In this document: piece after piece, positions 2,179 through 38,800 of the stretch
Layout of the letters: each line of letters opens with the position of its first letter
Position numbering within the stretch: the stretch's first letter is position 1
DNA from: Tetrahymena thermophila SB210
Taxonomy: Eukaryota; Ciliophora; Oligohymenophorea; Hymenostomatida; Tetrahymenidae
NCBI RefSeq assembly: GCF_000189635.1
Contig: NW_002476570.1
Location: 496,001-560,000 of the forward strand
Reading direction: 5' to 3'
DNA length: 64,000 nt
Notes under the pieces: model-generated
The model's input: the letters and a program-made list of their open reading frames with translations, nothing else
Databases searched by the model: none
What the model was told of the DNA's origin: nothing
Made by a program: the position numbers and the translations under genes

Positions 2179-5100
2179 ATGCTAAAAAATATATTTAGCT
2201 GTTAAAACTTGAAATAATTTTATATAGAAAACTCTTATTGCCTTTTTAAGGGTTACAAGCAGAGATTATTGCCATCAGTTTTAAGCCTACTATTCTATCA
2301 TTTCAACTTATTTCTTGTCGTAATTGATGATGAATCTTTAGAAAAATTTGAAACCTCTGATTCTAATGTAGCTATTCTAAAATACATAAATCTTTATAGA
2401 AATACCTATGCAAATCATCTCTATACCTCAATAATATGTATCTCTTTAAACGCTTTAGTTATTATATTAGCTATTATTTATTACCTGAAGTATTCTTTTA
2501 CTCAATTTAGAAATAAGAATTCCATTTTTCTTAGTGCCGTTTTATAAAATTTCAAGACTACTTTCTTTATTCCTCTCTGCTTTTACTCTATCTAAGGCTA
2601 GATAACAATCATTGGGTATATAAGCTCTATCATGACCTTAATAATATGTAAATTTGTTTTTCAATTTTAGATTCATTGGGATGGATATAAGGCTATATAG
2701 ATTTGATAATCTATTTACTCAATAACATAATTCTACATCCTATTTTAATTAAATAGATAGATATTTTATTTGAGTATGGATTTTAATATAAATTTATATT
2801 GTATTTACTGATTGCAAATTATAATTATCAAAAATCCAAAATCAGATGAGTAAATATGTGTAAATTTAATAGCTAACATAAAGATTTTTAAAGATTAAAT
2901 TTCTAATTAATTTTATTTTTCAAATAAGAAAGCAAATTTTTATCGAGGAATTTTATTTTTTATCAACTTACTTATTTTTTCAAGCATTTTCCAAAATTTA
3001 TCCTGAAATTATTTGCATAAAAAAAAAGGTTTGTTTTCTATAAAAAATGGAAGTAAATATCATTTTAAAGTAGGAGATCATCTTGCAAGAAAAAACTCTA
3101 TTTTTTAATTATTGGTTGCTGCGTTGATTTATATTTCTATTATCTTAAGAAGCAATCAATACAACTCAGTGTCTATAATTTTCATAATTATTGCTATTCT
3201 TCTTAATTTATTTGAAGATATATAGTTTCTTCCATATTTAGACAATAAAATATAATAATTATCTATACAACTTAATTTGATAAATTTGCTATGGCTTTCG
3301 GTTTTATTAATGGCTAACAGTATTAACTGGAGAGGTTTTACTATAATAACAATAATTGTTACAATACCAATTTATTAGTTAGGAAAAAATTTATATAAAT
3401 ATAGAATAGACTCTATAAATTAGATATTTATAGGAAACTCAATATATGATAAAGCATTCTACTAAAATTTAAAACCTCATATCATTGATATTCACATCAG
3501 AAGTGTTTCTTACTAGAATTTGCTGTTTTCATAACCAGATTATCTTAAAGGTTACTAACAGTAATTCTTAGAAGATTTAGCCATAAAGCATATTTAAAAC
3601 TGCTTTAAACGTCCTTACTGTTTCTGTTAGAAAATTTTTGAGGTATTTATTCTTTATTAATTTTTAACCAGTATATTTCAATCATAATATTTTCTTTAAT
3701 TCTTTTACTAAAATTTCATTTAAGAACGTTAATAATAAATAATTTATTTAATGTAACATAATATTTTTTATTTTATTTAAAAAAATTTTTAAAAATATTC
3801 TGATTTATTTATTAATTTATTTATAAAATCTAGCTTAACTAAAGTAATTTATTTCACGAATATTTTGTGGGAAATGCTTTACGATTACAATTTCAGCATA
3901 GCTATGTCTTAAATTTGTATGAGAGCTATTTTTAATTGAGTAAGAGTTTTATTGAGGATCTAAATGCTTCTTATCTTTATTACTTAGATGAATGTATGCA
4001 TAATAAATTAATTACCTTCAGAAAAATTATAGAGTTAAAGAATACGCGAAATAAAAATTTATCATTTATTTCGAATAGCATTCTTTGTAATATGCAGTTC
4101 TGTATTTTGAAAAATGATAATCAAAATACTATAAATTAGGTTATTAAATTTGAGGAGCAAATATAAATCACATACTACAAAATGATATAGATATTGTAAA
4201 AAAAGAATGAACTTGTAAGAGTTTTATCTGCAGATTTTATTGATTTAATTACTCTAGAAAAATATGGAAATTAGCTTACACTTGAAAGAGAAGAACTACT
4301 TAATGACTTTGAAAAATTATATTTCCAAAATAAATCTAATTACCTTTTACAGCTTCTCATATAAACATATTTGGCAGCTCTAAGTTTTAGCGGATCAAAG
4401 TAAAATTTACTCAATTATTTTTAATTAATTATATTTTTAATTTTGTCTTAGGTTACACTTCTAAAAAAGAATTTCTCATCAAAACTACCCTGAAACACTT
4501 TCTTTTCAATAAAGTTCTTTGAAGGATTATTTATTTTCAAAAAAATCTGTAGCTATTTTTGTCTCAATCAAAAAGGAATAACTTGGCCTGATTAAAAAGA
4601 TTTCAAGTAACATAGAATAAGTATTTGGCTATACAAAAGAAGAAGTCTAAAATTAAAATTGTAAAGTGCTGATGACATCTAACTTAGGAAAATTTCATGA
4701 TAATCTAATCTAAAATATGATAAACAGAGGTTCTATTTTAAAAAATCTTAATGATAAATTAAATCCTCTTTTAGCAAAAACAAAATCAAGTAATATTTTT
4801 TCTTTACTAAAATTAGATTATTTATTGTATTTTTTTTTCTTATTTTTAAATTTATAAATTATATTTTATTATTAGAATTACTTATACCCATATCATTGAA
4901 GCTTTAAATATCTCACATTGGAGTAGAAGATATAGGAGTTAGTGGTTTGATAACTTTAAATAAAGACTATAATTAAAACTATATAGTCTTAGATTTATAA
5001 AGTAAAGGATTCAGTTTAAGGATAGATGGGTTTACTTAAAGCGTTTTCTAATAGCTGTTTTAAACAATATTTTATTTTGAAAATTAAGAAGACTATTTCA

Positions 5101-8100
5101 AAATTTAAGCATCAAAAATATTTCCTTTACTTCCTTTTTTTATAAAAAACTTAAATATCCATGATTTAAAACAAGAAAATTAGCAGCCATAATATGTTCA
5201 AATGATGGGTTTTTTTCCATTTAACTCTTAAAAATTACTGATCAAAAAAAATTAAAATGCTGATTTATTTAGCTAAAATCAGGAGAGTATTTATGATTAT
5301 AAAAGTGAATTAGTTAGTAACATAAAAAAATTAGAATTTAGTACTTATAGCAACACATTATTTTAATGCCAACTTTCAATTTAATTTTTATCTGAAGAAT
5401 CACATTAATATTGCTAAATTAGTATAGATTCATTTTATGAATTAACTTTGTAAGAGTTTTAAAAGAGTTAAATAAAGCTAGATATTAAAAAGTAATTTTA
5501 AGAATTTGGCGATATAAGCTTTTCTTTAGAAGAGATAGATGAATATTTTGGTATCCAAAACATTTCTTTAAACAAACTTTTTTCTCATAATCAATCTTTG
5601 AAAAGAATATAATCTGCTAGGAAAGTAGCAGTTTAAAAAGTAAATTTTGATTAAGAATTATTAAATTAAAATGATTAAATGTAAGAATCTTTTTCAACTT
5701 TTCGAGCTTTAGAATCTGAAAAAAGATTTATTTCAATAGGAGATCAAATAAATTTGAATTCCTTTTCTAAATAAACCTCAAGATAAATTAAAAATTAATA
5801 CTTGCCATAAAAACTCAAAAATAATAATTAAATTAATAAGTTAAACTTAAATACTGGCGAACAATATCCTGAGAAAATACTTTTAAAAAATAACGAAGAA
5901 AGTTAAGAAGTTTGCTTAAATTCAAACAGGGTAGAGTAAAATTTTGAAATTAATTCAGGGTTATCCTTAGATTATGAATTAAGCTAATAAAAAAGTAGAT
6001 AATACAATCCAGAAAGTAATAGAGAAATCTCTCTTAAAAATTTAGAAGGTTCGTTTAAAATTATTAAAAAAATATCGAGTGAAAGCTAGTCTTAAATAAA
6101 TTCTTAATTAATCCACTTAATGAATTTCAGTGTCAACAAAAAAAACCCAATATCACCTACTTCAAGTGATTTAAATCTCTTAAAAAGCGTTGAAACAAAC
6201 TTAATCAGTTAAGCTTCTTTGCACAATAATGGAGATTAATTTCAAGATTTATAATTTGCTAAAAAATAGAAGTCTAAATAGTTATTTTTAAATGGAAAAG
6301 AAGCTAAAGATGATGAATATTATGTAAATAACAAAATACTGAGTAAATACTATGAGTCTAAGTTATCTGTAAAAGAATCAGCTGGTTCTGATTAAGATGA
6401 AATTGATCTTTCAAGAGAAATAAAAAGTATTCAAAACATGTCAATTTCTACAACTTCAAAATTATCAACAGAGAAATCTAAAAAAAAAATAATTATACAC
6501 TCTATTTCCAAAAAAAAGACAGCACCTCTTTACATCTTGATCAAAATTTTCACAGTTATTTCTATCAGTAAAAATATTAAATATAAAACTCTTAATTTTT
6601 AAATAAATAAAATAATTAATTAATTAATAATATTCTCCTTCCTTTAAAAATAGTTTCAATCTTTTCAGTTATGATAGCTGAGTATCTTGTCTTGAGTGAT
6701 TAGTTTGACAAATAAATAAGAAGCTTTTCCTATATATCTTGGGCTATGGATGCAAGAGTCACACTTACTCGCACATTTACAAACGAACAATTTAAGATCT
6801 TGGTCAATCATCCTATTTTTACTAACTAGGTTTAGGATAAATAACAAAAAGTGTCTGAGTATAATAATTATATTTCAAAATTAGCTTATTTTTACAAAAC
6901 AAAAGTGGATTCAATTTACCTTGAGAAGAGAAACGATTTAGTTCTAATCTAATATATGGTTAATTAAGATGTGGCAATCAAATACTTTTTAAGTGCTAAA
7001 GACTCAACAACTTTATAAGTAAAGCTATTGTATGATATGCTTTTTCATTATTAGTCAATTTAATAATATACTTAAAACGTTCCTAGCTCTGCATTAGCTG
7101 AGGCTTTTCTTTTCTAGAATTTTTAGAATCAAACTACTACTCTTGCTTTGATGTAAAATATTCAGTAATAATCTGTTACTGATAGCTTTAGTACAATTTT
7201 AGCTGTAGTTTAATAATTGTTAATAATTATCTCTATCATTAGTGGAGTTTTATTAATTCTCTCTTACAATTCATATATTTATAGCTAAATAAAGAAAACT
7301 TAAATTTTAAAACTTTTTTCAACTCTTGACCCATAAAAACTTCACGAAATGAACAATATACTGATTTAATCAAGCCAAATTCTCCTTTCAGAGAATAGTT
7401 AAGCTTTCCTTTTGTAAGGTTTTCGTGTAAAAAAAACTAAAGCTTAAAAAGATATTTAGATTACACCCATACCTAAGAAAAAAAAACTCACCTCCCAAAC
7501 AAATAAGTTGCCTTTGTTTAACTTTAAAGTATATTTCTTAAGCTTTGGAATATTTATTTTGATTTTGATTTATCCTATAACAAACTTGATAATTACTTTG
7601 GATCTTATAAACTAGTCTAACAATAACTAAAATTTATTAGGTAAAATATAATTAATTATTTATCAAAAAATATTGCTAAATGAATGTTTTTATTTTTTAG
7701 TTGAGCTATGAAAGCTTAAAATTTTATTTTTAACAAATTTCATTTAAAATATTTTTTGATAAAAAGAAATTTTCAAAGAATATAACAAAATAATTTTTAA
7801 CCCACCTTTAAATTATTTAATTAATTAAATAGAGATATTAAGTCAATAAATTAGGCAATATTTTACATTTAATTTATATTTTGTTGATAGTAATAATATT
7901 TAAATTATAAAAAAGCAACTATTTAGAATATGAAGGCTTAATCTGCCAGCAATATGGGTGCATATTCATTATATTTTGTCTCATAGTTATATCCTTCTCT
8001 TAAAATAACTCCAATAGATAGTTATAGGACTAGATTTTATAAAGTGATTACTTAAAATGCTGCTGTAGTTTCTGGATTTCATTAAAATATCACATAATAA

Positions 8101-8676
8101 TAGTCTTATTCTAGGTATAAATAAAATATCTTTGATAAATTCTTATTTTAATCGATTGAGAAAGATAGCTGTTCAATATTTAACAATTATTATTAAACTT
8201 ATTAAGTTTAGAATTATACCTTTGACAATAATAAGTGTTAATAGCTTTTAAAAGGTGTATTTTAAAGTGGATTGATGAATACTATACATTCTTTTATAGA
8301 ACCATACAATCAAATATATTAATTAGAATCAATTCATGATAATAATTAATGGTATAAACAAATAAATTACTTTTTCAACCACGAATATAACTTTTTTGAT
8401 ATCAAAGAGACATTTGAAATGATGGTTTTAATGTTTGATAGCTTGTCATAATTTATTAATAAAACAAATAATGATTTTTTCTCTTCAATGTAAAATATTT
8501 AAACTTGGCTTATGATTTATTAAATAATAATACTAACAATCACCTTTTATTACTTATTCTTTTTCTACTTCAACTCTTTACAAGAGAGTATATAATAGAC
8601 TAAAAAAGTACTCAGTCTAATTGAGGCTAAGCATTTATAAGAAAACCACTATATCTTAAATTACTTTAAACAATGA
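2179..8676 (+). CDS. Multi-pass membrane PAS-domain protein, array member A (1,808 aa)
   Basis: Seven exons: 2179-2647, 3029-3642, 3834-4399, 4452-4789, 4876-6567, 6654-7640, 7916-8676; all junctions keep frame and the gene ends at TGA. In order: about seven or eight hydrophobic helices (residues 20-300); a His/Cys motif HIQNCFKRPYCFC (H344, C348, C354, C356); a helical, TPR-like or coiled region (360-550); a PAS domain (about 583-650, with NQNCKVLM and FHDNLI); a long Gln/Ser-rich linker; a membrane helix; an outside domain opening with FSYISWAMDARV; two more membrane helices around FSTLDPQKLHEMN; a last outside domain with a Cys pair; a final helix and the C-terminal tail ENHYILNYFKQ. It resembles the large ciliate family annotated as PAS S-box or TmcB/TmcC-like membrane proteins. 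Ligand and signal output are unknown. The PAS motif has LMT where most paralogs have LMP. Confidence 0.92.
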
Positions 8677-9624: not shown

Positions 9625-12600
9625 ATGATCAATAAAATATTTAGGAAAAATGTTTATAAATAATTTTATATAGAAAATTCTCAAAGACTTCTAAAGAGCT
9701 ATGACTAAGGAATTTTTTTATCTGTCCTAAGTCTTTTATTCTATTACGTTTGTTAGCTATTTCTGTTAATTGATGAGGATATTCTTAATTTGTTAAGTGG
9801 CTCAGATAATAATTTGAATATATTTAATCATGTTTTGATCTTTAGGAAAGCACTTGAAAAAAATCTTTTGATATGTTTAATCTGTTTTTCTATTAATTTA
9901 TTGATCATTTTACTACTTATAATATATTTTATAGTCTATTGCTATTCTCCTTTTAAAAGCAGAAAATCACTTATATTAAGTATCTTATTTTAGAATTACA
10001 AATATATCCTATTTATGCCAATATCCTTCTATTCTATATTCAGCTAATCGATTATTGGATATCTTAATTCTGTAATTTCTTTGCTATTATGTAAGAATTA
10101 ATTCATTTAGTTATTCCTTTATTTTAATAAATTTAGTTACTTTCTTAAAACTAACAATTTATTTTTATCAATGCTGCAATTTTTTAATTTAAATTAATCT
10201 GAAAGAAACAAATTTATAAGATATGAATACTATTTCGTTAATAATTTTTTTAGGTATTATGCAAGTTACATTCAAATTTTATTTTTTATATTAAAAAAAA
10301 ATCAATTTATTTGACTTGAGGATGCTTAAATTTATTTTATTATTAGGTTTAATATCAAATAAGATAGGAAGTAAGTTTGACTTAGTAGTTTAAGATCATT
10401 TATCTAGGAAGAACGGCATTTTATAGACAGTGCAGATTTTGTTAGTTTATTTTTCTATTATTCTGAAATACAATGGATTCTAGAGTGTGTCTTTATTTTT
10501 TATGTTTTTTTGTGCTGTTATTAATGGAGTAGAAGAATATCTTTTCCTTCCCTTTTTAGACAGAACTGTGAATAAGTTGTCACTGTAGTTAAACAGCGTA
10601 GTGTGTTTAGGATAGCTAATAATTTGTTTGGCAATCAATGTAAATGGAAAAAGAACTTTTTTTGTTTTAATTACACTATTTGTATTAGCAATTAAACTGG
10701 CTTCAAATTTGCAAATTTAAAGGGAGAATAATATAAATTCAATATTTTTTTTGAAATCCGCAAATTAATCTAATTTTTTCTCCTCATTAAAGCCTTATGA
10801 AATAGATATTCATATCAGATTTTTAATCAGTAAATAACTAAAGCCACCACTTTCTGATAATAGCAAAATCATACTCGAAAGTGTTATTTTTGAGCACTAC
10901 TAATCTTGCTTAAGGAGACCTTATTGTTTTTGCGAGTAAATAACTAATGTAAAATTTTGATTCTTTTATTTGAATAATCAATTTTTTTTGAGATAAAATA
11001 ATTTTTTCTACTCAGAATATTTTTTGGTTGTTTATTTTAATTTTTTTATTGTATAAAATATTAGGTAGATGATGCAAAATTGTATCATGAGTATTATATA
11101 GGTGTGGATTTAATGTTATAATTTATGCAGAGCTATATATTAAATATTTATGAGAGCTACATTTAACAACATAAATAAACTTTTCATGAGGTTCATATTT
11201 CATATCTAAATTTTGTTGATCAGGTTATGCAAAATAAAATGTTAACTTTTAGAAAAGTTGTGGAGTTTATGAATAATAAGGAATATTATATCAGTTTAGA
11301 CTACAAAGGTTTGATTACAGATCTTTAATACAGAAACATTAGAAAACAAAGACTAAATAGCATAAATCAAGTTATCCTTTACGATGAAAAATTATTTGAA
11401 GTATATAAAAATTTGATTAAATTGTTACACCTAAAAAATGAGTTTCTATCAATAATTTCAAATGAGTCAATAGATATCTAGATTTTGGAAAAAGAAGGAG
11501 CTAATTTTCTAATTAAAAGAAATTAATTTTTTTAAGAAATCGGGTCTCTGTATTAATAAAACAAAGAAAGTCAATTTCTTTAGTACTTAGTGTAAGAGTA
11601 CCTAATTAATTTGAGCTTTAGTGATTCCAAGTAAAAATTATTCATACAGCTTTATAATTAGTTAGTTAATTAGTTTCTAATTTTTTAATAGGAAATGGTT
11701 TGAAAAAGATATTGCAGAGAAATGCGAAAGAAAAGCAGATTTTTTTGTTGATAAACAAATGCAAGAGCTTCTGTATTCTAAGTAATCTACAGCTGTGTTT
11801 GTTTCAGTTTAAAAAAATAAATTTGGAAATATTCAAAAAGTTTCAAAAAATATTGAAAATATATTTGGCTACACAATTTAAGAATGTTAAAATAAAAATT
11901 GTAGAATGTTAATGTCAAATAATTTAGGAGACTCTCATGATAACCTAATTTATAGGTTTCTAAATAGAGGATCTGTGAAAGAAAATTTTGTCTATCGTAT
12001 TAGTCCACTTTTGGCGAGAACTAAGTAAAGTAAATAAATACATCATTTAGTTTAATTTTATGTAAGTTTTAATCCAATAAAATTTACAGTATTAAATTTT
12101 TAAGCTTACACTATTTTTAAAAGCAAAAGAAAAAGCGTATTAAATAATTCAAGAAAATAAATTATTTTTTTACATTACATCATTTATTTTAAAGGAGTTT
12201 TGATTCCTATAACAATGAAGCTTTAAGTAGGATATGTAGGGACAGAAGATATTGGTATTAGTAGCTTGATTACTTTAAGTAATAATTTAAATGAAAATTA
12301 TTTAATACTTGACATGAAAAGTAAAAGAAATAGCTTGAGGATAGATAGTTACTCATAATGTGCTTTGAAAAATCTTTTTAAAGTATTATTACCTCTTAAA
12401 GATGATGAAGATTACTTCTAAATATAAGCTTCGAAAATTTTCCCTCTTTTACCTTTCTTTATTAAACATTTAGATATATCAGATAATAAGGCTGCAATTT
12501 ATAAAACATAAATTGTTGATATGATTGGATTTTTCCCTTCAAACCCAAATTAATGTTTGATAAAGGATAAATAGAGTGAAGAAAAAGAAGGTCAATTTAA

Positions 12601-15600
12601 TGAAAAATTGAGCGAATACAAGGCTAAGTTAATTCAGAAAATTAAAAATCTTGACTTTAGCTCTAATAAAAACTATTTATTTTAATGCCAATTAATTGTT
12701 TCTTTTCTGAGAGAAGAATAGTTAGAGTACTGTTAAATTTGTATTCATTCTTGCACTGAATTAAATTTAGCTGATTTCAAAAGAAATCAAATAAAAATGG
12801 ATTTAAAAGAGTAGTTTTTAAATTATGGAGCAATTAATTTATCGATAGAAGAATTAGATTAATATTTTAATATTAACAATCTTAACTCTCATAGGTAGTT
12901 TTTTTAAATAAACTCTTAATAATCCTAGAGATAATTAAATTTTGATATGTCTTTCAAGCCTTCTCAGAATTTAGTCCTCTAATAGGAAGAGAAATATAAC
13001 AAAATAGAGCTTTTAAATTAAAATTCAGATTCAGTAGAAACAAAGAAAAGTTTCAATGAAATTTTAAAGTCTTCAAATGAGAATAATGAATAAGCTTAAA
13101 AATTCATAAAAGATTCAGAAATGAAATCAGTTAATATTAAACTTAAAGGTATCTTAAGTAATCATAATAAAATTAAAGAAAGTGGAATAACAAAAATCGT
13201 TGACAATTTACAATAAAAAATAAATGAAAAAATTTAAGAATAAAATGAAATTTTTTGCTAAAGTAGGAGCAAAATAATAGATTTTAGCACAATCAATACT
13301 CCTAAATTAAAATAAATTGAAGATCAATAATAAAATGGAAATAAAGAAATTTCTTAAGATTATCATAATGGCTTAAATTAAATAATTCAAAAGTCTAACA
13401 GCAATTCAAAAATTTTATCATAAAGCAATGTTAAATTTAATTAATCATAATAGCGTGTTTAAGCATCTACTGCGAATGATACAATCTTTTTAAAAAGTAC
13501 AGAAGCTATAATTTAAAGTTCAAGCTCTTTTATTTCACCAAGAAGTTTGTATAATGAATAAGTGCAGCTTCTGAATAACCAAAGCACAGAAAGATAAAAA
13601 GTTGTTAATTGTATTTTAAAAAAGTCTTGTGAAATAGTGAGTGAGAGCTAATATTAAAAATTTAATTGTAAGGAAAGTGATTAGCCAAGTTATCAGATCC
13701 AATTCCAGAACACTCATGATAGTTCAAATTTTAATAAATAAAAAAATCTTTAAGAAAAAAGTATTAAAAAGGCATTTATAAAATAAATTTAAAGTAAGAA
13801 ATAATCTAAAACTTTCATGATAATGAAAATATTCTCAATTTTATCTTTAAGTAAGCAACTTAAATTATAAAAAATTAATTAAAGATTTTATTTAATTTAA
13901 ATTAAAAGTTGGAATAGCTTCGATAATTCTTCAAAAGTATTTTGAACTTTCAGACAAATTTGATAAATAAATTAAGAGTTTTGAGTACATACCGTGGCCT
14001 ATTCAAATGAGAGTCCTAATTAGTAGAATTAACAAAGATGGATAATTGAATTTTTTATTGAATAATCCTATTTTTTATAATAGCACAGATAACAAATCAT
14101 ATTAATCTTCAATATTCAAATAAAGAATGTATAATTTTAGTTAAGTATATAAAAAAAATTTAGAAAATATCATTGAAGAAAAGAGAGAAGATTTAGTTTT
14201 AAACTAATATATGATATAGCAATACACAAATCTTAAATTTTATTATAATGAAACCTACTACGTTTATATAGATGTTCCTATTATTTACGGTATGCTCATG
14301 CATAGTTAAGCTATGTTTTATTACCAGCTCTAAAATGGAGCCTTTGATATGGCAGAGAATTTTCTTTTTGAAAACTTTTAAAACTAAACTGTGACATTAA
14401 ACATATTGTAAAATATATAAGAATAATCTGTAAGTGAATCATTCGATGATATTTTAGAATCAGTTAAGTAACTTTTAATCATAAGCTCAGTAGTGAGTGG
14501 ATTGTTTCTGATTTGCTCTTATTTTGCCTTTTATTAAAATTAAAAATCTAAAGCAAAAGCTTTAAATCTTATTTCTACAATAGATCCAATAAAAATTTTG
14601 CAAATGAACAATTCTCTATTTAAATCAAGTTAAATTCTTTTATCAGATAAAATAAAATCTACATTTTTAAAAGGATATGGTGATAATTCCAATTAAATTA
14701 AATAGTTTTAAGTAAAAATTTTAGAAAAAAAGAAGAAGTTAATATCAAATACTAATAATTTAAAATTATACGACATAAAAGTGTATTCAATAATCATGGC
14801 AGTTTTCATACTCATAATGATTTATCCTATCACTAATTTAATCATAACAGTTAATCTAATTAACTAGTCTAATTCTAATTAAGAACTACAAGGTAAAAAA
14901 AATTAAATTAATAAAATTTTTAATTTAGATTTTTTAATATTAAAAATTTTTTTTTTAAATAAATTCACAATAGCGACTTTACAAAAGATAAAAGCATAAT
15001 TTTCAAGTAATATAGGCTCTTTTAGCGTTTATCTCGTTGCATAGCTGTATCCAAACCTAAAAACAACAAGTGTATCTAGCTTTAAAGCTAGGTATTATAC
15101 AGTTTTATCTCAAAATTCCTAAATTCTTTCTAGTTTTTAACAAAATATTACAAGTTAGAGTTATATTTCAAGATATAATTAGGATTTGTATTAAAATTAT
15201 TTATTTAAATCTTTTGAGTAAAATAGCTGTGATATTTTTAATAAATATTATTCGCTTTATCAAGTAAGTGATTATGCATTTGACTATGTAAAATGCAATA
15301 AATTACTCAATGGTGTATTTTAAAGTGGTTTATTAACAACTATTTAGCAATTTATTGAGCCTTTTTAATTCGCACAAAGTTTTGATAGTATAAAAAATAA
15401 GTAATAATGGCTAGATACTGTTTCAAAATATTTTAACCAATAAGTAAATCTCTATGAACTAAGTGATACCTTTGAGATGATTATCTTAATGTTTGATTCC
15501 TTTTCTTAGTTTATATTAGATTGCAATTAACAATTTTTTTCAAATATGATACAAATTTAAACAATTTTAATGATATATTAATTCATAATTCTGCTCATAA

Positions 15601-15734
15601 CTTACTACTTCTTATTATTCAGGTACTTTGATAAACTATAATAAGATTTAGACTAGTCTAAAAATATACTAACAATTTTTGAATCTCAATACCTGTATGA
15701 AAACAATTACATACGTAATTATTTTAAACAGTGA
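9625..15734 (+). CDS. Multi-pass membrane PAS-domain protein, array member B (1,790 aa)
   Basis: Seven exons: 9625-10090, 10347-10948, 11065-11630, 12195-13850 preceded by 11692-12029, then 13909-14892 and 14974-15734. Exons 3, 4 and 7 have exactly the lengths of gene A (566, 338, 761 nt) and all phases agree, so A and B are close paralogs. Start choice is supported by a shared KQFYIENS block 12 codons after the ATG in both. The protein has N-terminal membrane helices, the motif HYQSCLRRPYCFC (H339, C343, C349, C351), a helical region, a PAS domain with CRMLMSNNLGDSHDNLI (LMS instead of LMP), a Ser/Gln/Asn-rich linker of some 450 residues, an outside domain starting FEYIPWPIQMRV, membrane helices around ISTIDPIKILQMN, a last outside domain with paired Cys, and the tail ENNYIRNYFKQ. 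Role inferred as a membrane sensor; no ligand is identifiable. Confidence 0.92.
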
Positions 15735-25191: not shown

Positions 25192-28100
25192 ATGCTTAAG
25201 TAGATTCTCTGGCTTCAAAAGCTTAAATAATTTTATGTAAAGAATCAATAGACTTTACTGAAGGTATGGGACAGACCTCTTTGGGTTGGTTATGCAGGAA
25301 TTTTACTAAACTATTGTTTTTTCTTTTTAATAATGATGAATGAGAATACCCTTAAAGATTTGGAGTTAAAAGACTATACTATGTAGAATTTTCGATATAT
25401 CTCAATATATAGTGAGCATATAATATCTCATAAAACAATATTTTTTATATTTTTTGGTTTTAATATTGTTATAGTATCTTATTTAATTACTCTTTTAGTA
25501 AAATTTCTAATAAAACCATACGAGAACTTAAAATAGCCTATACTTAGTGTAATTATTCAAGGCTATAATTTGTTTATAGTAATACCTTCAATGTTCTACT
25601 CACTAGTTGCTTTGGACGCTTTTAGTTATATAAATATATCTTTAACTATATTATTAGGTAATGTTTATTTATCATGATTCATTTTCAATAAATCTACTTT
25701 TTAATTCATTTTAAAAATACCTATCATTACACATTAAAAATATGAAAACAAATTAGATAGATAGATCCCCTATTTTGTTTAAATATTGCATGAATACATC
25801 AAATATAATAAAAATAATAAACCTTAAGTTTGAATTTCATAATAAGAGCACAAATCATTTAAAAATTAAAAATTAAAAAATGTAACACAATGGTAAATGT
25901 AGAGGAATTTAGCTTAAAACTAAGAATATGAATTCTATTTCATGAAATAACTTTAATTACTATGGTATGTATTAAATACTCTAAAATTTTTAGAAAAAAA
26001 GAAATTCCACTATTTTTACAACTAGCTAGAACAATTAATTTTTACTTATAATTTTTTTACTTGAAAATAAATTTTGAGTGTAAATTAAAAAATATAAAAA
26101 ACTTAGCGCTTATTCATTCAATTAAGACCAGTACTTAAATTAAAATGTATTTTTTACTACTGTTAATTAATTTCCCTATTAATTCAATTAAAATAAGAGT
26201 TATTTTACAAAAAATTTATTTATTAATCTTAATTATTTATTTTTATAAGGTTTCTTTAGTTCTAAACATCAATCAAAATACTCATTTGAAGTAAAAGATC
26301 ATTTATCAATATAAAATTCCTATCAAGAAGTGATTTAATATGTGATTAATTTAATTTACTTGACAGCTGGCGCTTTGTTAAATAAGAGTTTCATTTCTAT
26401 TTTTTATTTAATCGTACTTTCAATAAAACTAACTCGATTAATTCTGATGAACAATTATTACTCATAGATGATATAAATATTTGAAACTTAAATTGTATTA
26501 TCCAATTTTATTTGGTGCATTATGATCATGATAGCACAATATAATAAAAATATTGATTTTTTATTGTTTTTGATTCTGGTATCAACTCCTTTGTCCTTCA
26601 AAGCAATAGCTAAAATTATGTAATTTAAAATTAAAAGAGAACAGTCTTTTTTTCTCCAGCATTCTACAGATATTAATTGGAAAATTGAAGTAAATGCTTC
26701 TCAGTTTGATTTTTATATTAGACGAATTTGGTAAGACTTTAATGCTTAATCTAGAAAGTCAATGCTTGAAGATGATAGCGCTATTCATACAGAGTTAATT
26801 ATTTTTTGGCATATCTAGTCATGTACCAAAAGACCATTCTGCTATTGCTAAAATATTAGTGAGGTAACTTAAAAAAATACTTTTAAAATTATCAAAAAAA
26901 TGAAAATAATATTTTTAAATTTATTTATGTTTAAAATGAAAAATTTAAATAAATAAATTTTGAGTAACCTTTTAAAAAATTAAAAACTTTGTATTTTATA
27001 AAACACAATAATTAGATCGGCCAAACTAATATGATCAAAGAATATTTGCTTGAAAGCAGCTTCAGAAGAATCTTTCTAATTGACTATATTAATGAATTAT
27101 TTCATAAATTTCTTAATCACTAAAAAAATTTTAATTCAACTCATTTAAGCCATTTATACTTCTTAAAGCAATGCTCTAAAAATGCAGCTCTTCTTAACAT
27201 AAAACTATTAGAATACTATAAAAATTATAATAAGAGCATGTCAATGTAGAATCTTTCTACTTTAGAATATTTGATTTCGAATCAAGGTAAAAATACTTCA
27301 GAACTAAATATATATAATGTAATACAGTTTGATGAAAGTATTTCCAGTGTAGCTGAATAAGAATTAAATTTAATGGATTAAAAAACAGAGTTCTTAAAAT
27401 GCATTTCTTAAGATTTTATTGAACTACAAAATCTAGAAAAGACAGGTGTAAAACTATGCAGTGAACGAGATGAACTAGAAAAAAAGCTTAAGTAATTATA
27501 TAAAGTGAACCCAAATAATGAATATCTCAATTTTTTAATTTCTAATTATTTATGCTGCTTGAGCTTTGATGACTCTAGGTAAATTTTAACTTATTTATAT
27601 ATATACTTTTTAATTTAATGATTATCTAACAAAAATAACCACACATTTTTAATTAATTTTTCTATTTTATTTTTTAATAGGGAACAATTTTTGCAAAATC
27701 TTAAATACTAGAAAAAGCCAAATCAGAAGATATTCTAAGCTGCCTTTTCCAAAAACTCAGCCGTTGTTTTTATATCACTACTTAAAGATGAGTTTGCACA
27801 TATAAAAAACGTCTCTAATAGTTTCTTATTAAATTTTTAGTACGAGAAAAGAAATATACTTGATAAAAATGTTGCAATCTTAATGCCGAAAAGCATTGGT
27901 ATGTAGCATGATAAAATAATTTCTAGATATGTAGAAAGAGGTTTTTTTGAAGAGTAAAAAATTAAAGATATATAACCATTGTATGCTATCAATTCTAAAG
28001 GTATTTATTTATTCCAAAATAATTAAATTTAATATTAACTTTTCCTTTCAAAAATAAAAAAATCAAAAGGTTTTTTAATTGAAATCTAACTAAATCTTCA

Positions 28101-31100
28101 AATTAGTTTAATGGGTCTTAATTAAATTGGAGTAAGCGGTTTGATATAAGTTAATAAATCGTTAAATGAGTATGTTGTGATTACAGATGTAATCAATAAT
28201 AATCTTGTGTAAGCTGCCTCTACTTAAATCTATATTGATTTATTCCATCCATATATCGAAAAGCAAGAAGAATACAAAAAAATATTCATGCCTTAATGCA
28301 TTCCTCTTCTACCACATGTAATTAAAGCAACTATGTTAGAATTTAATTAAAGATTAGGCGATAAATAAGATAATAATAATTCTATTTAAGGGATAGCAAA
28401 AAAAGCTTAAATCATTAAGTCAAAAAAAATAGAAACAATTGCATTTCTTCCTAAATTTAGAAAAAATGGAATTTCAAGATTGTTTTTGAAACCCTACGAT
28501 TTAGAATAAATGATTAGAAATGGGCTGTTTACATTAAATCTGAATGACATTTATATAGTTTAATTCAAAGTTCAAGTTACTATAGATGAATTTTTGAATG
28601 TAGGATAACTTGTCTTTAAAACTATTAAAAAAATTGAAATTTAAGAGTAATAAATTTAAAGTATTAACTTGCTATTTTTGGAATAATTGAAGTAGTATTG
28701 TCCAAATTGCAATTTTTCTTAAGAAGAAATTTAATCTCTTTTCTTTATGAATGACTGGCAGACCTAATTATTTAGCAAAATAAATTAGGTTGTTGATAAG
28801 TATTCTCATCATCATTAAAGCTTAACAAATTTAAACACAATTAAAAAGTAATATGAAAACTAAATAGAAGAAATTTCAGAAGAAAAAGAAGAGGTTTTGA
28901 ATTAAACAGACAGAGATACTTAATTTATATCTCAAAGAAACTATCTGAATCACTTTGATGCTGATATTTAAAAGGAGGATAACATATTATCTGTATAAAG
29001 AGATATAGGAAGTATAGATAATCTTATGACTCCCAAAGAGAAGCATAATAAGCCACTGTTTTCACATAAGCAAATTCAAATTGTTGCTTAAGAAAGTTGG
29101 ATTAAGAATTTTGAACATTAGTAAATAAGTAGTCAATAACATGGATCTAAAGATCTACGATCTAACGAAACTACCAACATATTAAGCTAAACTTCTTTGT
29201 AATCTCCTAAATATAAAGAGAGTTAAAAGTTAATAATTCACTCTTCTCGAGGATCAAAAAATTTTGATTTATTACCATTAAGTATGAAGTAGATAACACC
29301 AAATTATACTTAAAGCTAATCACTAAAAAAAATGAACTCTAAACAACTCTCAGACATCAACGAAAAGCTTGAAGCATAAAACGAATAAAAAAATTTGTCT
29401 GACGAAGTTTAAGCTGTGCACTAACAGTCTGTTTCATCATCCAGAAACAATCAATTCACCTCAATAAAAAAGATTATAAAAAATTCTTTTGAAAAACCAA
29501 GTAGAAGTAGAGTTTTCAACTAGATTTTGATACTAGCAGTTATTTCACTAAGTAAATTTTTTATCTTTTCAAAAAAATTTTATTAGATAAACTAATATGC
29601 AAAAATTCTAAAATAATTTCAAGCAAAATTAAAATTTTTTCATTAAAATAATTAAAAAAATACTTTTAAAAGATCCATATATTTATTAAAAATTAAGAAA
29701 GAATTAAGAGCAAATTTAATATTAAAGATGATAAATAACTGACCTATATTTATATATAAAAGAAAATTTCATTTTTAATTAAATAAAAATGATTTTTGGA
29801 AATTAAAAAATCTAAAAAAATATTTTATACGGCAATAGCAATAATTTAATTAGCTTGATTTTGAATTAAAATTGAATATATTTATGTAAATTTTATATTA
29901 ATTTTTTTTACTTTTAGTAATCGTAGGGATAATTATTATTGTCTTCTTTTTCAACCTTGAGCATAAGTTTGATTTATAAACTAAAGATTTCTACTATATT
30001 CCATGGGGCATGAATATCAGAATTTCAATAAGTAGAATTTTCAAAAACCATATTTTTGAAAAATTTACAAATATTCCAGATTTTGGAATGTATAATAATA
30101 GAAATATTTTATCTCCAATTTTTAACTAGAATAAATATGATTAAAATACTTATTTTAAAGATCAAATACTTGAGATAGTATAAGAACCGATGATTGATTT
30201 GTTTTTATTGCAATATATCACTGAAAAAAACTTACCAGTAAGCTTTTATAACAATAACACAGATTTTACTACTTTAGAAACGAGAGTGTAACCTGCTTTA
30301 AACTTTTATGGCATATATATGTTTTAATTTGCAAATTATAATATGAATGATCCCAACAAAAGTGATAAGCTTATCATGATTAACCTTTTTAATAATTTTT
30401 TAGTTTTAGTTAAGAACTTTGCAAACATTTAGTCTCTTTAAGAGTAAAACATTTAAACAAATAATAATTAAATTTAGAGTATAGTCTTAACACTGCTTTG
30501 CTTAATTTGTGTTATCTCTTTAGCATTTGTACTAACAATTATTCCTACTTTTGCTTATTCTCAGCTTAAAAAGTAGCGAATATTTTTTTTATTTTCTACG
30601 ATTGATCCATAAAGAATTAAGGAAATGCATAAAGTAATTCTAATTGCAAGTCAATAAATAATCTAGTATAAAACCAAGTCTCACCAAAAAAATCTATCTC
30701 ATTTTGGAACAAGTTAATATTTAAAAAATCATTAGTTAAAAGAAAGCGAATTAATTAACAAAAAGAAAAAAATTTCATCTTCTTCTTAATATCCCAAATA
30801 TAGTTTTAGTTTAATTCTAAAATGTTTAATTGTCTACATCATACTTATAGTCTATCCTGTTGTTAACTATATTATTACTAATACTCTAACTTCTCAATCA
30901 GGCGAAAACCAAACACTACAAGGTAAATAAAATATTTTATAGAAATTTTAAATTTATTATCTAAAAACATTATTTATTTAAGTAAATATTATTCTAAATT
31001 TTTATCAAAATAAAGAATTAAATTCTATTTTTGATTATGATTAAAATATTTCAAAATTAATACTTATATTATTATGATAATTATTTAATAAAATGAATTA

Positions 31101-31858
31101 TTATAGGATTAATTCAAACTGCGAAGGCTTAAATTTCAAGCAACATTGCAACTTTTGGATTATGTGCTCATTCAGATCTAAATCTTAGCAATGATTATGA
31201 CCTTTTTCCTAAGTATCAGTAGAGATTTTTAAGTGTTTTATAGTAAGGCCCAACAACACTGTCTCAATTTTAAACAAGTATTTAATAATAACAATAAAAA
31301 GGTAGGTTTAACCAATAATTATATACTGATTTCTTTTTCAATATCATAACAAGCGATGCTTGTGCAGTTTTAAAAAATTATCCATAATACTTTAATAAAA
31401 CTATATTAAATTACTAAAGTTGCACATCTACTTACAATTCGGTTCTGCAAAGTGGGCTACTTAATGCTATAAATATTTTTTCTGACTTCTTTGTTAATGC
31501 TTATGAAATTTATCAAATAAATGATAAATAAAAGAGATATAGTGCTCTTGTATAACTTATATAAAAAAACGACTTATTTCAAGTTAATAATCTCTATGAA
31601 ATGATTATAGAATTTATGACAGGGTTAACTAAATTTATAGTAGAGACAAATGATTAATTTTTTTCTCAGATGAATTTGGTTTAAAAAATTTTGATGGTCT
31701 ATCAATTTATTGTTTTAGCGATTGTCTACCAATTTGGGCTAGTAAAATATTTTAAGGATATTACATTTTAGCTAAAAAGAGCAAAGCATGTTCTAACAAT
31801 TTTCGAAATAACCTATCTTGTTGAAAATTCTTATATATTAAACTATTTATCAAAATGA
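25192..31858 (+). CDS. Multi-pass membrane PAS-domain protein, array member D (1,733 aa)
   Basis: Seven exons: 25192-25657, 26250-26863, 27016-27578, 27681-28000, 28070-29551, 29918-30922, 31107-31858; all phases match genes A and B, and the first intron (592 nt) is the longest in the array. Parts in order: about seven or eight membrane helices; WHIQSCTKRPFCYC (H343, C347, C353, C355); helical region; PAS domain with AILMPKSIGMQHDKII; long Ser/Gln/Lys-rich linker (about residues 820-1140); membrane helix with IIVGIIIIVFFF; outside domain opening FYYIPWGMNIRI; membrane helices around FSTIDPQRIKEMHK; last outside domain with paired Cys; tail ENSYILNYLSK. The linker contains CPNCNF, an extra CxxC not seen in A. 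It is of the A/B type by intron plan although it lies between the two members of the other type. Function inferred only from domains. Confidence 0.92.
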
Positions 31859-32912: not shown

Positions 32913-35900
32913 ATGATAATAGGAAAGTTTCTACAAAGCAAAAAGCTTTAGAATTTTTACATTTATAATTTTCCTAGTTTAATTTATGAATATAACAGAC
33001 CATTTTTATTATCTCTACTATGGATGACCTTAGAATATATTGAATATTTAATGATTATGTTTGACTAAGATTTAGTTAATACTATTTCGAAAAAGGATCC
33101 ATAATTTGAATGGATTAAAAGTACAACAATTATGTCGAGAAATTCATCTTATGCTTTGATAATTACATATATTTTCCTAGCCTTTAATTCATTGATCTTG
33201 CTCTATCTACTTATTCTATATGCAATTTACTGCAGAAAAGAATTTAAATTTTATAAGTCTACATTGTTTAGTATAATCATTCAACTATATACGGCTGTTT
33301 TAGTAGTTCCTTCTTTCGCCTTTTCTGCAGCTAGCAAATCTCCAGTAGGAGTAGTAAATATCATTCTTACTTTCATAATAAGTAAAGATTTATTATTTTT
33401 TCTATTATTTAGTTTAATATTTATAATGTTCTTTACAAATACACTATGTTTTTTGTATCCAAGTATATGTATATATAAATATTAAATTTTCAAAATATTT
33501 TTGAATACAAAATAATATCTATTTATATGAATTAATAGGTTTTATAAATTGTTTGCATCATCAAAAATTGAGTTTCACTAATGTTGATTCGTTGTCTCAA
33601 AGAGCTTCTAGTTTAGTAGGGATGTTTAAAATATTTCTAATTTTTATAGGAATTATAATGAGAAACTTTATACAGAGTAACAATATATTTCCTGTATTTC
33701 CTTTGATCTTATCGATTTTTGGCTTAGTTAAATTCTGGTGGTCTTTTCCCTACATAGATTAAAGGATAAATAGAATATTTTTATACTTGAATATATTCAA
33801 TTTCCTTACTAGCATAATAATTATTATTTATATTAATACTAGCGTCATAGTTTCTATTTTCTTTCAAATTTTTATAATTCCAATACTCGCTTTTAAGCTC
33901 TCTCAAAGGTACTATAACTATAAGGTTGAATTTATTAAAAATTTGTTCTACTTAGTACCATTGACTCTTAATTACGAAACAGATGTACCTTAGTATGCAA
34001 TAGATTTTTTAATTAGGGATTTAGCTAATAAATCAAGATTTAGTGAGCTGACTACAAGTTAGATTCATGATCATAAAAATGAGTTAATTTAAGACGAATT
34101 ATTAACAAGACATATGAAAAATTGTGTTAAAACTCCTTACTGTCAATGCGAAGGGATAAGAAGCGTAAAATATATTTAAATATTAAACAAACACATATTT
34201 AAATTATACAATTGTAATTTAGGGAATAGATAATGATTTAAAAATAGCGATATCTGAAATATTCGAAAAGAGAAGGGAAGTAATTGATTAGGAAATATTA
34301 TAAATATTTGAAAATTATTTAAAAACAAGAAAAAATTTAAGCTATGTGCATATAAGCTATTTGTATTTTTTACACGATAGAGTTAAAAATTATTTGCTGA
34401 TAAACACTTAAATTTATGAAATGATCAATCAGAAAAAATAGAATTTGCTTTCGTATGACATAGCTCATTTGAAGTATCTCCTTTACAAAAATATTAGTGC
34501 TCAAGAGCTAAATAGCAATCTATAAATAGACAAAGTATTCAAATATGAAGAAAAAATAAAAATTTGCTAGTATGAGCTTACTGAGTGTATCTTGCAAAAG
34601 CTAGATATCTTAAAATACATAACAGAAGATTTAATAGATATTTAAGCGTTAGAGAAAAAGGTTACCAAATTCCTCAAAGGCAGAAAATTGGTGGAGCAAT
34701 CATTAATAGAGGTGTTAGAAGCAAACTAATTTTGCTCTATTCTTCAAAACATGATTACCATATTTTAACTTAATATCAGCTTTTATGAAAGCAAGTAAAT
34801 AAATAAATAAATTAAGTAATTAGTTAATTCTTTTCTATTTTTGAAAAAAAAGGGAAATATTTTAGAAAAAATAAAAATAGTTCAAGAGCATGAAAAAATT
34901 AAATGAATCGCTTTTCAAAAAGAATGCAGCTGTTATATTTGTTTCTCTTTTGAACTCTTCCTTTGGGTTAATAAATCAAGTTTCTAAAAATTTTGAGCAC
35001 ATTTTTGAAATAACCCCTAAAAATATTATTGGGTATAATTGTAATTTATTAATGCCCTCTGGAGTCTCTTTACAGCATAATAATATACTTAAAAGGTATA
35101 TTTCAAAAGGTACTAATTAATCGTTTAGCTCATTTGATCAATAACCTATTTTGGCTTAAAATAAATCAGGTAATTAAAAAATACAATTTATCAATTAATT
35201 AAAAGAATAAAACCATAGATAGATAATACTGACAATTATTTTTTATAATTTTAAATAGGATTTATTTTTTAAATATCTAAGTAATATTAAATTTATACTT
35301 CATTAAAGAATGAGCTTGGGCTAATTGGATTAATAACAATGATAGACAATTACAAAAAACAGGATTTTTTAATTATAAATTTGAAATAACTTCCATTAAA
35401 AATAGAAGCCTGCTCTTAAAATATACACCAAAGGATATTTCAAAAATATATTGGACCTAATAAAGAATATTAAAATATATTGTTAAGCAGAATATTTCCA
35501 ACTCTACCATATATTGTTTAAAATAGCTCAAATAAAAAGAAAAATTAGAAGCCTATAAAACTATTATTAGAGAACGAAACAGATGAGCCTAAAATATTAG
35601 AAACTTTTGGATTTTTTCCTGATAGAGAATAACAAGAATCTCTTTCTAATTTTGCAAAAAAATAACAATTCTCAAATGGAGGCAATCTTCATACATTAAT
35701 GGAATAAGGAGAATTTAGCTTCAGTAAAAATAAAATTTTTTTAATTCGATTCAAACTTTGGTACATCAATGATGAATTTTTAGACTAATGCACAATTTAA
35801 ATTGAAATGATCAAGCATTTGATTCCTGAAACGATTATCAATAGCTATCATGAATAACTTTTGATAGAATAGCTTAAAAAATATTGCTCTCTTTCATACT

Positions 35901-38800
35901 CTATTAATTAACTCAGACAATATTTATAAGGTGATCAATTCTAGTCAAGTTAGAAAATTGATTTCGTTAATCAACAATAAAGTTACCCACATCTAAGCCT
36001 TGAATAAACTACTTTTGATATATTTAGATAATCTAAGAATAAAGAATTAGTCATTTTTAATGAATTAAATCAATCAGAAGGAAAAAAGTATGTTTTTTTA
36101 TTATTTTTATAGATCACTTAGTTTTATTGTTTGAAATGATTAAAAAAATAATTAATAACTTTATTTTATTATTGTAGGAGCTAATCGAGAAATTCTAAAC
36201 TCTTGAAAATATAAAATGAGCTTTTACATAATAACGATTCAGAAAATGTAGAAAATAGCGCAAACCATGTGTTTAGTTTATCTACATTTCATTCTCCGAG
36301 ATTCATTAAAAATGGAGATTAGAATGGAAATTTACTTGTTTAGAATACGCCAAGAACAACCGATAGAGAATTTTTGCTATCAAACAATGGCAAAAATAAT
36401 CACGTAGATATGCCAGAATTATAGATGTAACTGCAACCTTACGCTAAACAAAGTTTAATGCAAGATGTAGAATCTGAACATGATAAAGATTAGAATTAAA
36501 AAGATTAGTATTAATCATCTGACATGTAGACTATGAATTAATACTCCACTCAAAGAAAGACAATTATGAATAATAACATTTAATCTGTTTCGACATCAAT
36601 AAATTCATAGTTTAAAGGATAAAAATTGTAAATTTACAATACATTTAAATCAATAAAACAACCATTCTTTTTTTTGATGGTAAAGTATCTCTCAATGATT
36701 TGTCTTGGTAAATAAATATTTTTTTAATATCGAAATAAAATTTTAATTAATTTCAATTTCTATAAAAAGCCACTTTATTAATATTAATTTTGGTAGTGTT
36801 TGTTGATCTTAAAAAATAGTTTGATCTTAACACAAAAAATTTCTATTACATATCATGGGGAAATAACCTGAGAGTGCAAACAAGCAAAATTTTTAAGAGT
36901 TATTTAACAGCAAGACTACTTGATAATGACATATATGGTTATACTAATGATCCTAATAAGTAATTATACTAACATGAATAACTTACGAATGGAACGTAGG
37001 CATTCAAATCTCTTTAATCATATCTCTCTGAAATTATAAATGAAAAAACCATAAACTTAAGTTTTATGGATATCATAACTGAACATAAAACAAATATTTT
37101 ATTTTCTTACTCAACTACGAAATCAGTTAATATTACAGCTTACGGAATATATATCCTCTATATAAATTCTCAATACTTATATCAATATGGAAGTATGAAA
37201 TAATATTCTCCTCTAATCGAATATAATGCTTATAGCAACTTTTTAAATATAGCTAATTTGCTCTCTGTTATTTAAAATTCTTAACAATAATCAGTCACAG
37301 ATACTTTTAATCAGATAAAACTTGAAATTTTGCTTATGTTGATATGTATAGTATCGATTTGTGCAGTTTTTGTGCTATTTGTATTTCCTGCTTATACTTT
37401 TAGCCAAAGTTACAAATAAAAAATTTACAGTCTTTTTTCAACAATTGATATCATATGGATAAGAGAAATGCATAGAAATTTATTATTTTGCCTTTCAAAT
37501 ATATCTGATAAAAATTCAGTGTAAATTTAAACTATCAGAAGGTATTAAAGCAGCGAGCTTTTGAATAAAAAAAAGTCGATTTCTTCAACTACTACGTTAA
37601 GCAAATTTTCTATTAAAATTGTTTTTTTCTCATTAATATTATATGTCATTTTGATCATTTACCCTATTGTTAATCTGATTATTACAAATAATTTAATCGA
37701 TCAGTAAAATAATAATCAAAATCTTCAAGGTAAATTATTTTAATTATAATTTATTTGTTAATTTATTCATTTATTATAAATCTTCATTAATTTTGGCAAA
37801 AAATTTTTCTTTAAAAATCAAAATTAATCAAATAAAAAAATTTTAAGCATTACAAATTTCAAAATAAATAAAAAAAATCTTTGATGATTGATTTATGATA
37901 AATATTTTTTTGTAATTTAAAAAGGGTTCTTCAAATGTTTTAAATTAATTATTTTAGGATTTGATTAAAGATTAAAATTAATTTAGTTAATAATATAAAG
38001 CAATTATATAATTATATATTTATTATTAAATATATTTAGGGGCTATTCAAAATACAAAAGCAGCTTTCATGAGTACCTTGTCTATTTATGAACTTTATGC
38101 TAATTCATTGTTAAATCCAGGTGAAGAAAATTTATAAAAGTCTTATTAAGAAAGATATACCATAATTCTGAAATAAGCTATGTAAGCTTTTGATGGATTA
38201 TTGCAGGTAGTACAAAAGCAGGTATCTTAAAATAGATACCAATAAAATGAATATGACTAATTTTTATTTCCTATTTTGAAATCAAATGCATGTGATCCAA
38301 TATCTAACTATCCTTAATATGTTATTAGTGGTTAAACTAATTTTGATTAGCATATTTGCAATACGCTAATTGATGGGTAGTTATCCAAAGGTTTAACAAC
38401 TGCTTTGCTTTATTATTATAATATCTTAAACAATATTTTTCTTCTTCATCAAATCTAAGATCCTGTATCAAGAAACTAATAAATAAAATAATATTTATAA
38501 AAATATAGACTACTAGAGTTGAATACTTCTATTGACTATATTGAAAATATTTTAAATATAATCAATGATTTTGTGTATACCAATAGTAAAGACTTCTTTA
38601 ATTATATGACTGACATACAAACAATTCTACTGTTGTATTAATTTGGAGTTCTAATCACTGTCAATTAACTTGCCCTAATTTTATTTTTTAACTCAATACA
38701 AAATACTATGAATGATTCTAAAAACGCACTTACTATATTAGAAATTAGATACATAATAGAAAGCCCTTATATTATGAGTTTCATAAACTAGAAGTAATGA
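32913..38800 (+). CDS. Multi-pass membrane PAS-domain protein, array member E, second subtype (1,687 aa)
   Basis: Eight exons: 32913-33381, 33539-34164, 34223-34794, 34853-35169, 35259-36087, 36178-36707, 36770-37729, 38040-38800; frame holds to the TGA. Exon 3 (572 nt) equals that of gene C and the extra intron (36088-36177) lies where C has one. Parts: N-terminal membrane helices; RHMKNCVKTPYCQC (H348, C352, C358, C360); a helical region with regular heptad-like Leu spacing; PAS domain with VSKNFEHIFEI, IGYNCNLLMPSGVSLQHNN and LKRYISKG, the clearest of the five; a linker rich in Gln/Asp/Ser; membrane helix; outside domain opening FYYISWGNNLRV; membrane helices around FSTIDIIWIREMHR; last outside domain with paired Cys; tail ESPYIMSFINQKQ. 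Best read as a duplicate of C. Role as a membrane sensor is inference. Confidence 0.93.

Follow-up and report, generated by a model that had tools for sequence, protein, structure and literature searches.

In FixL, a histidine of the PAS domain is reported as the proximal heme ligand (PMC10765370), and in Tetrahymena, arrays of LRR genes are described as products of tandem expansion under purifying selection (PMC6564038). The array described here resembles the LRR arrays in its tandem expansion in a ciliate and in its apparent purifying selection, and differs in encoding another protein family; the word PAS does not occur in the main text of that report. A literature search found no paper on the present PAS receptor family, none with 'Tiny macrocysts', and none joining 'Tetrahymena' with 'PAS domain S-box'. 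Little is known about the receptors with which free-living ciliates sense chemicals and oxygen, and a family of such size, with a sharp and testable cofactor prediction, is a starting point for ciliate sensing.

The window analysed is a stretch of 64,000 nucleotides of Tetrahymena thermophila SB210 (contig NW_002476570.1, positions 496,001 to 560,000). We propose that it carries an old cluster within a large family of multi-pass, tandem-PAS membrane sensors that may hold a cofactor, perhaps heme, in the first PAS domain (PAS1), a reading to which we assign a probability of about one half. New here are a FixL-like PAS1 with a kept histidine, a conserved His-Cys3 motif and a second PAS fold predicted by modelling.

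Five tandem paralogs and their relatives

Self-comparison of the open reading frames of the window, together with splice models, identified five tandem paralogs (g1 to g5) at 2179-38800, all on the + strand and encoding proteins of 1,680-1,808 aa. All five models are open in code 6 without an internal stop, end in TGA and contain exclusively GT-AG introns. An earlier note on this DNA had proposed five large same-strand genes, open in the ciliate code, with a common exon plan; the genes were confirmed, with identical first and last bases, and the exon plan was borne out in all five predicted models. Six introns agree in alignment column and phase across all five genes and a seventh is common to g3 and g5, in models that were hand-corrected with the paralogs in view and are therefore biased toward common intron positions. 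A first automatic run, made without paralog comparison, already placed 24 of the 32 final introns base-exactly (6/6 in g1, 3/6 in g2, 6/7 in g3, 4/6 in g4 and 5/7 in g5). When the run was repeated after training on the final models, g1 and g2 came out identical to those models, and the differences were a 6-base shift in g3, retention of a 69-base intron in g4 and a different 5' end in g5.

Table 1 Positions of the array genes and of their parts within the window
Feature	Position	Strand	Remark
g1	2179-8676	+	7 exons, 1,808 aa
g1 exons	2179-2647, 3029-3642, 3834-4399, 4452-4789, 4876-6567, 6654-7640, 7916-8676	+	
g2	9625-15734	+	7 exons, 1,790 aa; closest to g1 (42%)
g3	18501-24249	+	8 exons, 1,680 aa; closest to g5 (51%)
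g4	25192-31858	+	7 exons, 1,733 aa; 28% to each other array gene
g5	32913-38800	+	8 exons, 1,687 aa
g1 N-terminal membrane region	2179-3474	+	hydropathy; about 8 hydrophobic segments, count uncertain
g1 motif H-x3-C-x5-C-x-C	3589-3627	+	
Same motif, other genes	g2 10895-10933, g3 19714-19752, g4 26810-26848, g5 34111-34149	+	
g1 PAS1	4528-4958	+	intron-split; family PAS1 profiles
g1 PAS1 His632 codon	4696-4698	+	aligned to FixL heme-ligand His
Counterpart His codons	g2 11936-11938, g3 20674-20676, g4 27907-27909, g5 35076-35078	+	
g1 second PAS-like domain (PAS2)	4959-5573	+	predicted from fold model of g4 region
g1 linker	5574-6524	+	most divergent of longer parts
g1 outside domain 1	6695-7186	+	between hydrophobic segments 6525-6694 and 7187-7267; no conserved Cys
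g1 outside domain 2	7610-8499	+	conserved Cys pair at 8170-8172, 8236-8238

Apart from the two closest pairs, g1/g2 and g3/g5, the remaining eight pairs share 25-28% identity. A single exon query found 122 places in the genome, and a rough merge of family matches gave about 149 loci, 107 of them in 26 arrays. The local duplicate cluster of the earlier note thus consists of real tandem paralogs and was understated, with over a hundred relatives in many arrays; the array in the window is one sample of a large family expansion. The five genes are ancient duplicates and form one old cluster within a much larger ciliate family. They grouped together in trees with support of 76/41 and 56/83, and in a third tree the group also included L051, a locus from another contig, so that a shared local origin is probable but not certain.

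By profile comparison, the five array proteins are also distantly related, over their length, to a PAS protein of the TmcB type from this genome. One such protein, cut from a fused automatic model (locus L052), matched an eight-sequence family profile at E 1e-25, compared with E 42 for its reversed copy; its best-domain score was 65, and 20 block-shuffled and 20 residue-shuffled controls peaked at 18.4 and -2.1. An array-only profile gave 19.5, against 9.2 and 0.3, respectively. Collinearity of this protein with the array proteins covers its N-terminal half and its last loop, these two stretches being significant and the part between them not, and it shares the His-Cys3 motif, the location of the PAS domain and the C-terminal loops between membrane segments. 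TmcB-type proteins differ in that their PAS domains group apart in trees and in having their own Pfam domain, TPR_TmcB (PF25474), which matched none of the five array proteins at E 1 and, when the genome was searched, nothing within the window. We take the name of this domain to come from the Dictyostelium tiny-macrocysts proteins.

PAS domains, the conserved histidine and the membrane region

In Pfam searches at E 1, three of the five array proteins matched PF00989 (best 9.6e-5) and two matched PF13426 (best 9.5e-5). Full-length g1 had no Pfam match at E 1, and its PAS region alone gave E.045 with PF13426, which falls short of the cut-off of that model. When PAS1 profiles were compared with PDB sequences, FixL was the top match in two runs (9.6e-8 and 3.6e-8) and remained so when the conserved histidine was masked (8.5e-7); DosP followed FixL in the 3.6e-8 run, and in the masked run YtvA, a LOV protein, stood between the two. 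Judged by profile matches and modelled fold, PAS1 is a member of the PAS domain superfamily.

Confidence in the fold models is modest (mean pLDDT 61.7 and 60.7); the first value is that of the g4 PAS1-PAS2 region, for which the model shows a second PAS fold. The best 50 of 937 PDB matches of this model (E 10) are all PAS proteins, with 47 matches at E 0.001; TM-scores were.11-.36, and a 23-aa unspliced insert in PAS1 is modelled at low confidence. PAS2 is visible in the fold model only and showed no sequence link to the PAS1 profile.

All five array genes carry His at the FixL heme-ligand position on helix F, as do 73 of 81 family PAS1 sequences, a set that was collected by similarity to family PAS queries and may favour this residue; six of the eight sequences that lack it fall in one clade. 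Array proteins differ from FixL, a bacterial oxygen sensor, in having no Pfam kinase domain and far more membrane segments. They also lack a kept Arg200, a residue close to the heme propionate in FixL: Arg occupies that position in only 5/81 PAS1, and within the array in g2, g4 and g5, with Lys in g3 and Asn in g1. At the distal Leu230 position, hydrophobic in FixL-type sensors and compared here by eye, g1 and g4 have Leu, g2 has Met, and g3 and g5 have Lys, which argues against a distal pocket of the FixL type in g3 and g5. That Arg200 and, in g3 and g5, Leu230 are not kept is consistent with another possible, less probable reading, in which the two outside domains would be the sole source of the signal, with PAS1 and PAS2 as cofactor-free dimerisation or relay modules and the histidine as a structural residue. 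PAS1 is, however, among the best-conserved parts of the array proteins, and this histidine and one Pro are the most conserved residues among its well-covered columns (73/81), which speaks against this reading.

The matches to LOV proteins bear on a further alternative, in which PAS1 would sense light or redox state through a flavin or in a LOV-like manner. Asn-Cys occurs in g1, g2, g3, g5 and L051 (5/81 PAS1) at the column that we take to be the LOV cysteine position, and YtvA, VVD and phototropins are among the further, weaker PAS1 profile matches. Such a sensor is nevertheless improbable: the Cys is missing from 76/81 PAS1, including g4, FixL is far ahead of YtvA (3.6e-8 vs 0.0023), and the RFLQ motif was not seen in PAS1 on comparison by eye. 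A LOV photoreceptor was rejected on the presence of the Cys in only 5/81 PAS1.

Upstream of PAS1, the motif H-x3-C-x(4-7)-C-x-C is present in all five array genes, against an expected 0.25 matches for the whole scan of 354,831 aa. The N-terminal region, with about eight hydrophobic segments within about 300 aa, might itself be the functional core, acting as a channel or transporter under the control of the PAS and outside domains, and Pfam at E 1 showed no output domain, enzymatic or other, in the five array proteins. This is unlikely, as searches of Pfam and of PDB sequences at E 1 matched neither channels nor transporters, and this part diverges about as much as the rest.

Outside domains and proposed signalling

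The predicted topology would place the PAS parts inside and two C-terminal loops outside. Paired cysteines, which the earlier note had assigned to both outside domains, are found in domain 2, where C1641 and C1663 are present in 5/5 array genes and in 11/11 when six further genes are added; in domain 1, no alignment column has Cys in at least three of the five rows. A PDB sequence search at E 10 gave zero matches for domain 1, and for domain 2 three, all weak (E.075 and worse). Neither domain had a credible Pfam match, the best values being.0065, in one of eight members, and.13.

The ligand domains of the bacterial four-helix chemoreceptors Tar and Tsr are among the fold matches of the C-terminal model (TMt.35-.59, all at E above 1), including Tar 4z9h (probability.75, TMt.54) and Tsr 2d4u (probability.54, TMt.59). 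The likeness lies in a modelled helical loop between two membrane helices, with a weak structural fit, and is in keeping with signalling through the outside domains alone.

In the sensor reading that we prefer, the helical outside domains would feel a ligand or the membrane, and PAS1 would hold a cofactor, most likely heme on the conserved histidine, with which it would read redox state or the gases O2 or NO/CO. This state may then pass through PAS2 and the helical part to partners or to the membrane region at the N terminus. More speculatively, and rather doubtfully, this ciliate may have more than 100 multi-pass receptors, most of them with a His-Cys3 metal site and a FixL-like heme-PAS domain for gas or redox sensing on the inner side, paired with two divergent helical ligand domains on the outer side. 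If true, this would be a eukaryotic receptor class reading an outer cue and the inner oxygen or redox state in a single protein.

Sequence change by protein part

Between g1 and g2, dN was.48 in the outside domains vs.38 in PAS1 and PAS2 (Fisher p.010), and between g3 and g5 it was.41 vs.33 (p.032). This large divergence (dN.41-.48) would suit outside domains that signal alone. Measured against the N-terminal half, however, the outside domains do not change faster: the odds ratio was.83 (p.046) for g1/g2, meaning rather less amino-acid change outside, and 1.13 (p.22) for g3/g5. The linker is the most divergent among parts of more than 50 codons, and PAS1 is among the most conserved. The outside face that varies, as suggested earlier, was thus not borne out.

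Synonymous differences in the array lie at the randomised expectation (.69 and.72 vs.714) and are saturated, so that dN/dS there cannot show positive selection. Two less diverged pairs from elsewhere in the genome, L053/L055 (C157) and L057/L058 (C174), gave odds ratios of 1.13 (p.25) and 1.00 (p 1) for the outside domains against the N-terminal half; their outside-domain dN/dS was higher (.15-.24 vs.10-.14), which follows from a lower dS, itself close to saturation. The domain-wise dN/dS check that had been suggested is therefore saturated in the array, and in the two pairs it gave no support for positive selection on the outside face. Constraint on the array genes looks purifying from these comparisons, and large intact tandem paralogs with a PAS domain and two loops between hydrophobic segments, under constraint, fit the sensor family that had been envisaged. 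The pairs L053/L056 and L055/L056 were left out, the L056 model being fused to its neighbour with a wrong last exon and L055 having a spurious start. In these pairs, PAS1 was again the lowest, or almost the lowest, of the long parts.

A tandem array of five large paralogs

Self-comparison of the open reading frames in the window recovered five tandem paralogs, g1 to g5, which encode large predicted membrane proteins with PAS domains. This confirmed the tandem array of large paralogs described in the earlier note. Six introns coincide in alignment column and phase across all five genes, and a seventh is common to g3 and g5. The paralogs were consulted when the splice models were corrected by hand, but the first automatic run had already placed 24 of the 32 introns to the exact base. 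A retrained gene-prediction run was identical to the final models for g1 and g2 and differed at one place each in g3, g4 and g5, where the paralog-consistent version was retained. Four tandem tRNA genes directly follow the array (39094-39939), and their anticodon would decode UAA as glutamine.

Features of the window and of the array proteins
Feature	Position or extent	Strand	Details
Array proteins g1 to g5	2179-38800		1,808, 1,790, 1,680, 1,733 and 1,687 aa (splice models)
N-terminal membrane region	about 300 aa		roughly eight hydrophobic segments, count uncertain
tRNA gene	39094-39165	+	anticodon TTA
tRNA gene	39376-39447	+	anticodon TTA
tRNA gene	39604-39675	+	anticodon TTA
tRNA gene	39868-39939	+	anticodon TTA
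ABC transporter domains, two adjacent ORFs	42593-45495	+	PF00005, E 1.3e-11 and 1.8e-22
Single open frame	54643-59589	+	1,648 aa in code 6; no Pfam match at E 0.01
TRP channel model, weak match	61182-62186	+	PF06011, E 1.8e-4, under model cut-off

Membership of a genome-wide family

The genome search covered 101 Mb in 445 contigs, window included, and its counts are minimum figures. With the last exon of a member on contig C157 as query, at least 122 genomic places matched at E 0.001 or better, of which five lie in the array. Merging these by distance with two further places, 69 of 78 PAS places and 6 of 120 places from another search gave about 149 loci on 48 contigs, a rough figure that draws on only part of the latter two sets. 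Arrays of two or more, 26 in number, hold 107 of these loci; the largest has 17 (C13), and four in the merged list have five genes, that of the window among them. Near-identical match scores at corresponding places of contigs C254, C383 and C400 perhaps reflect redundant assembly contigs or very young copies.

A last-exon tree (17 rows, support 76/41) and a tree of the first PAS-like domain, PAS1 (23 rows, 56/83), each placed the five array genes in one group; in a PAS1 tree of 79 rows they grouped with L051, a homologous locus elsewhere in the genome (92/74). Within the array, g1/g2 and g3/g5 are firm pairs. A local origin of the five genes is likely, if not firmly shown.

Genome-wide, the Pfam model TPR_TmcB gave 21 matches, none of them inside the window. 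A protein cut from L052 (C276), a locus holding one such match, was compared with a family profile of the five array genes and loci L051, L053 and L054, and matched at E 1e-25 with a best-domain score of 65, against maxima of 18.4 for block shuffles and -2.1 for residue shuffles (n=20 each). The reversed sequence reached only E 42. The match is collinear in two stretches, the N-terminal half and the last loop, with no significant match to the profile between them. When the profile was restricted to the five array genes, the protein scored 19.5, compared with a maximum of 9.2 for block shuffles.

Divergence across the protein

Synonymous differences reach a proportion of.69 in g1/g2 and.72 in g3/g5, equal to the level of randomised codons (.714), so dS in these pairs means just "large". 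Identity in g1/g2 and g3/g5, respectively, is 42% and 51% for the whole protein, 55% and 61% for PAS1, 41% and 49% for outside domain 1, 50% and 49% for outside domain 2 (the two loops near the C terminus), and 30% and 43% for the linker.

In two less diverged pairs, L053/L055 (C157) and L057/L058 (C174), dN/dS was.05 and.04 for PAS1 and.20 and.19 for the linker. Outside domains gave.15-.24 versus.10-.14 for the N-terminal half, a higher ratio caused by lower dS: nonsynonymous counts in outside domains and N-terminal half gave odds ratios of 1.13 (p.25) and 1.00 (p 1), and in g1/g2 the outside domains were slightly slower (.83, p.046). This comparison lends no support to the varying outside face proposed in the earlier note. 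In the two less diverged pairs, outside domains did exceed PAS1 and the second PAS-like domain, PAS2, combined (odds ratios 1.9 and 2.3). The uniform neutral divergence that would have refuted the note's proposal was not observed, divergence being neither uniform nor neutral.

Protein anatomy and the PAS1 domain

From the N terminus the parts are the membrane region, a His-Cys3 motif, a helical stretch, PAS1, PAS2, a linker and two loops, each flanked by two hydrophobic segments. The motif, H-x3-C-x(4-7)-C-x-C, is a putative metal site. It is present in all five array genes, in 9/9 loci outside the window retrieved by an N-half query, in 8/8 ten-kb loci and in 5/10 short loci (L001-L010), the other five of which may not span it; ten loci of the C-terminal half and 60 short PAS stretches, where none is expected, lack it. 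Five loci duplicate the same genes, leaving 22 distinct motif-bearing genes, against 0.25 matches expected by shuffling across all sequence scanned. Pfam at E 1 matched PAS in three of the five array proteins and showed no enzymatic output domain in any; the sole non-PAS match was KNTase_C in one protein (E.015).

A fold model of g4 PAS1-PAS2 (mean pLDDT 61.7, poor at 87-161) contains two domains of PAS-like topology. All 50 of its listed fold matches are PAS chains, among them DosP, ARNT, PER, CLOCK, HIF and LOV-PAS; they align over 315-413 columns, and their overall TM-scores are low. The g2 C-terminal model (mean pLDDT 60.7) is almost wholly helical, the exception being a small pair of strands in outside domain 1; it had no significant fold match at E 0.001, the highest probabilities among the listed matches, none significant, being for the Tar and Tsr ligand domains.

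The array proteins are most likely membrane sensors with an inner, cofactor-bearing PAS1, a reading in which we infer cofactor, ligand, topology and output. PAS1, on the inner side, would carry the cofactor and pass on its state, by way of PAS2 and the helical part, either to partners or to the N-terminal membrane part.

A candidate for that cofactor is heme. In profile searches of the PDB, a nine-row PAS1+PAS2 profile listed 16 sequences at E 1, headed by seven FixL sequences (9.6e-8 to 5.6e-5); behind these came DosP/YddU heme-PAS, a single LOV protein, one Mur ligase and one histidine kinase at.05 or worse. A fifteen-row PAS1 profile placed FixL first (3.6e-8), DosP next (2.7e-4) and LOV proteins after. 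With the conserved His masked, FixL was still first (8.5e-7), followed by YtvA (6.4e-4) and DosP; the match therefore does not hinge on this residue and is in part common to flavin PAS domains. PMC10765370 gives FixL His194 as the proximal heme ligand and names an arginine Arg200; in the nine-row alignment the conserved His of PAS1 is aligned with the FixL residue six places before this Arg200. Two features count against heme: PAS1 does not keep Arg200, and the FixL Leu230 position is occupied by Lys in g3 and g5.

PAS1 was scanned in the five window proteins and in 97 further loci that lie outside the window genes; 60 of these loci are short PAS stretches chosen from the sets of 78 and 120 places mentioned above. 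At i-E.01 with the needed columns spanned, 86 matches qualified, 81 of them distinct; 16 loci had no qualifying match, ten being loci of the C-terminal half. The His is present in 73/81, the top share among well-covered columns, tied with one Pro. Six of the eight His-less domains form one clade (L091, L095, L097, L102, L108 and L115, on C14, C22 and C67), which offers a natural control for the heme hypothesis.
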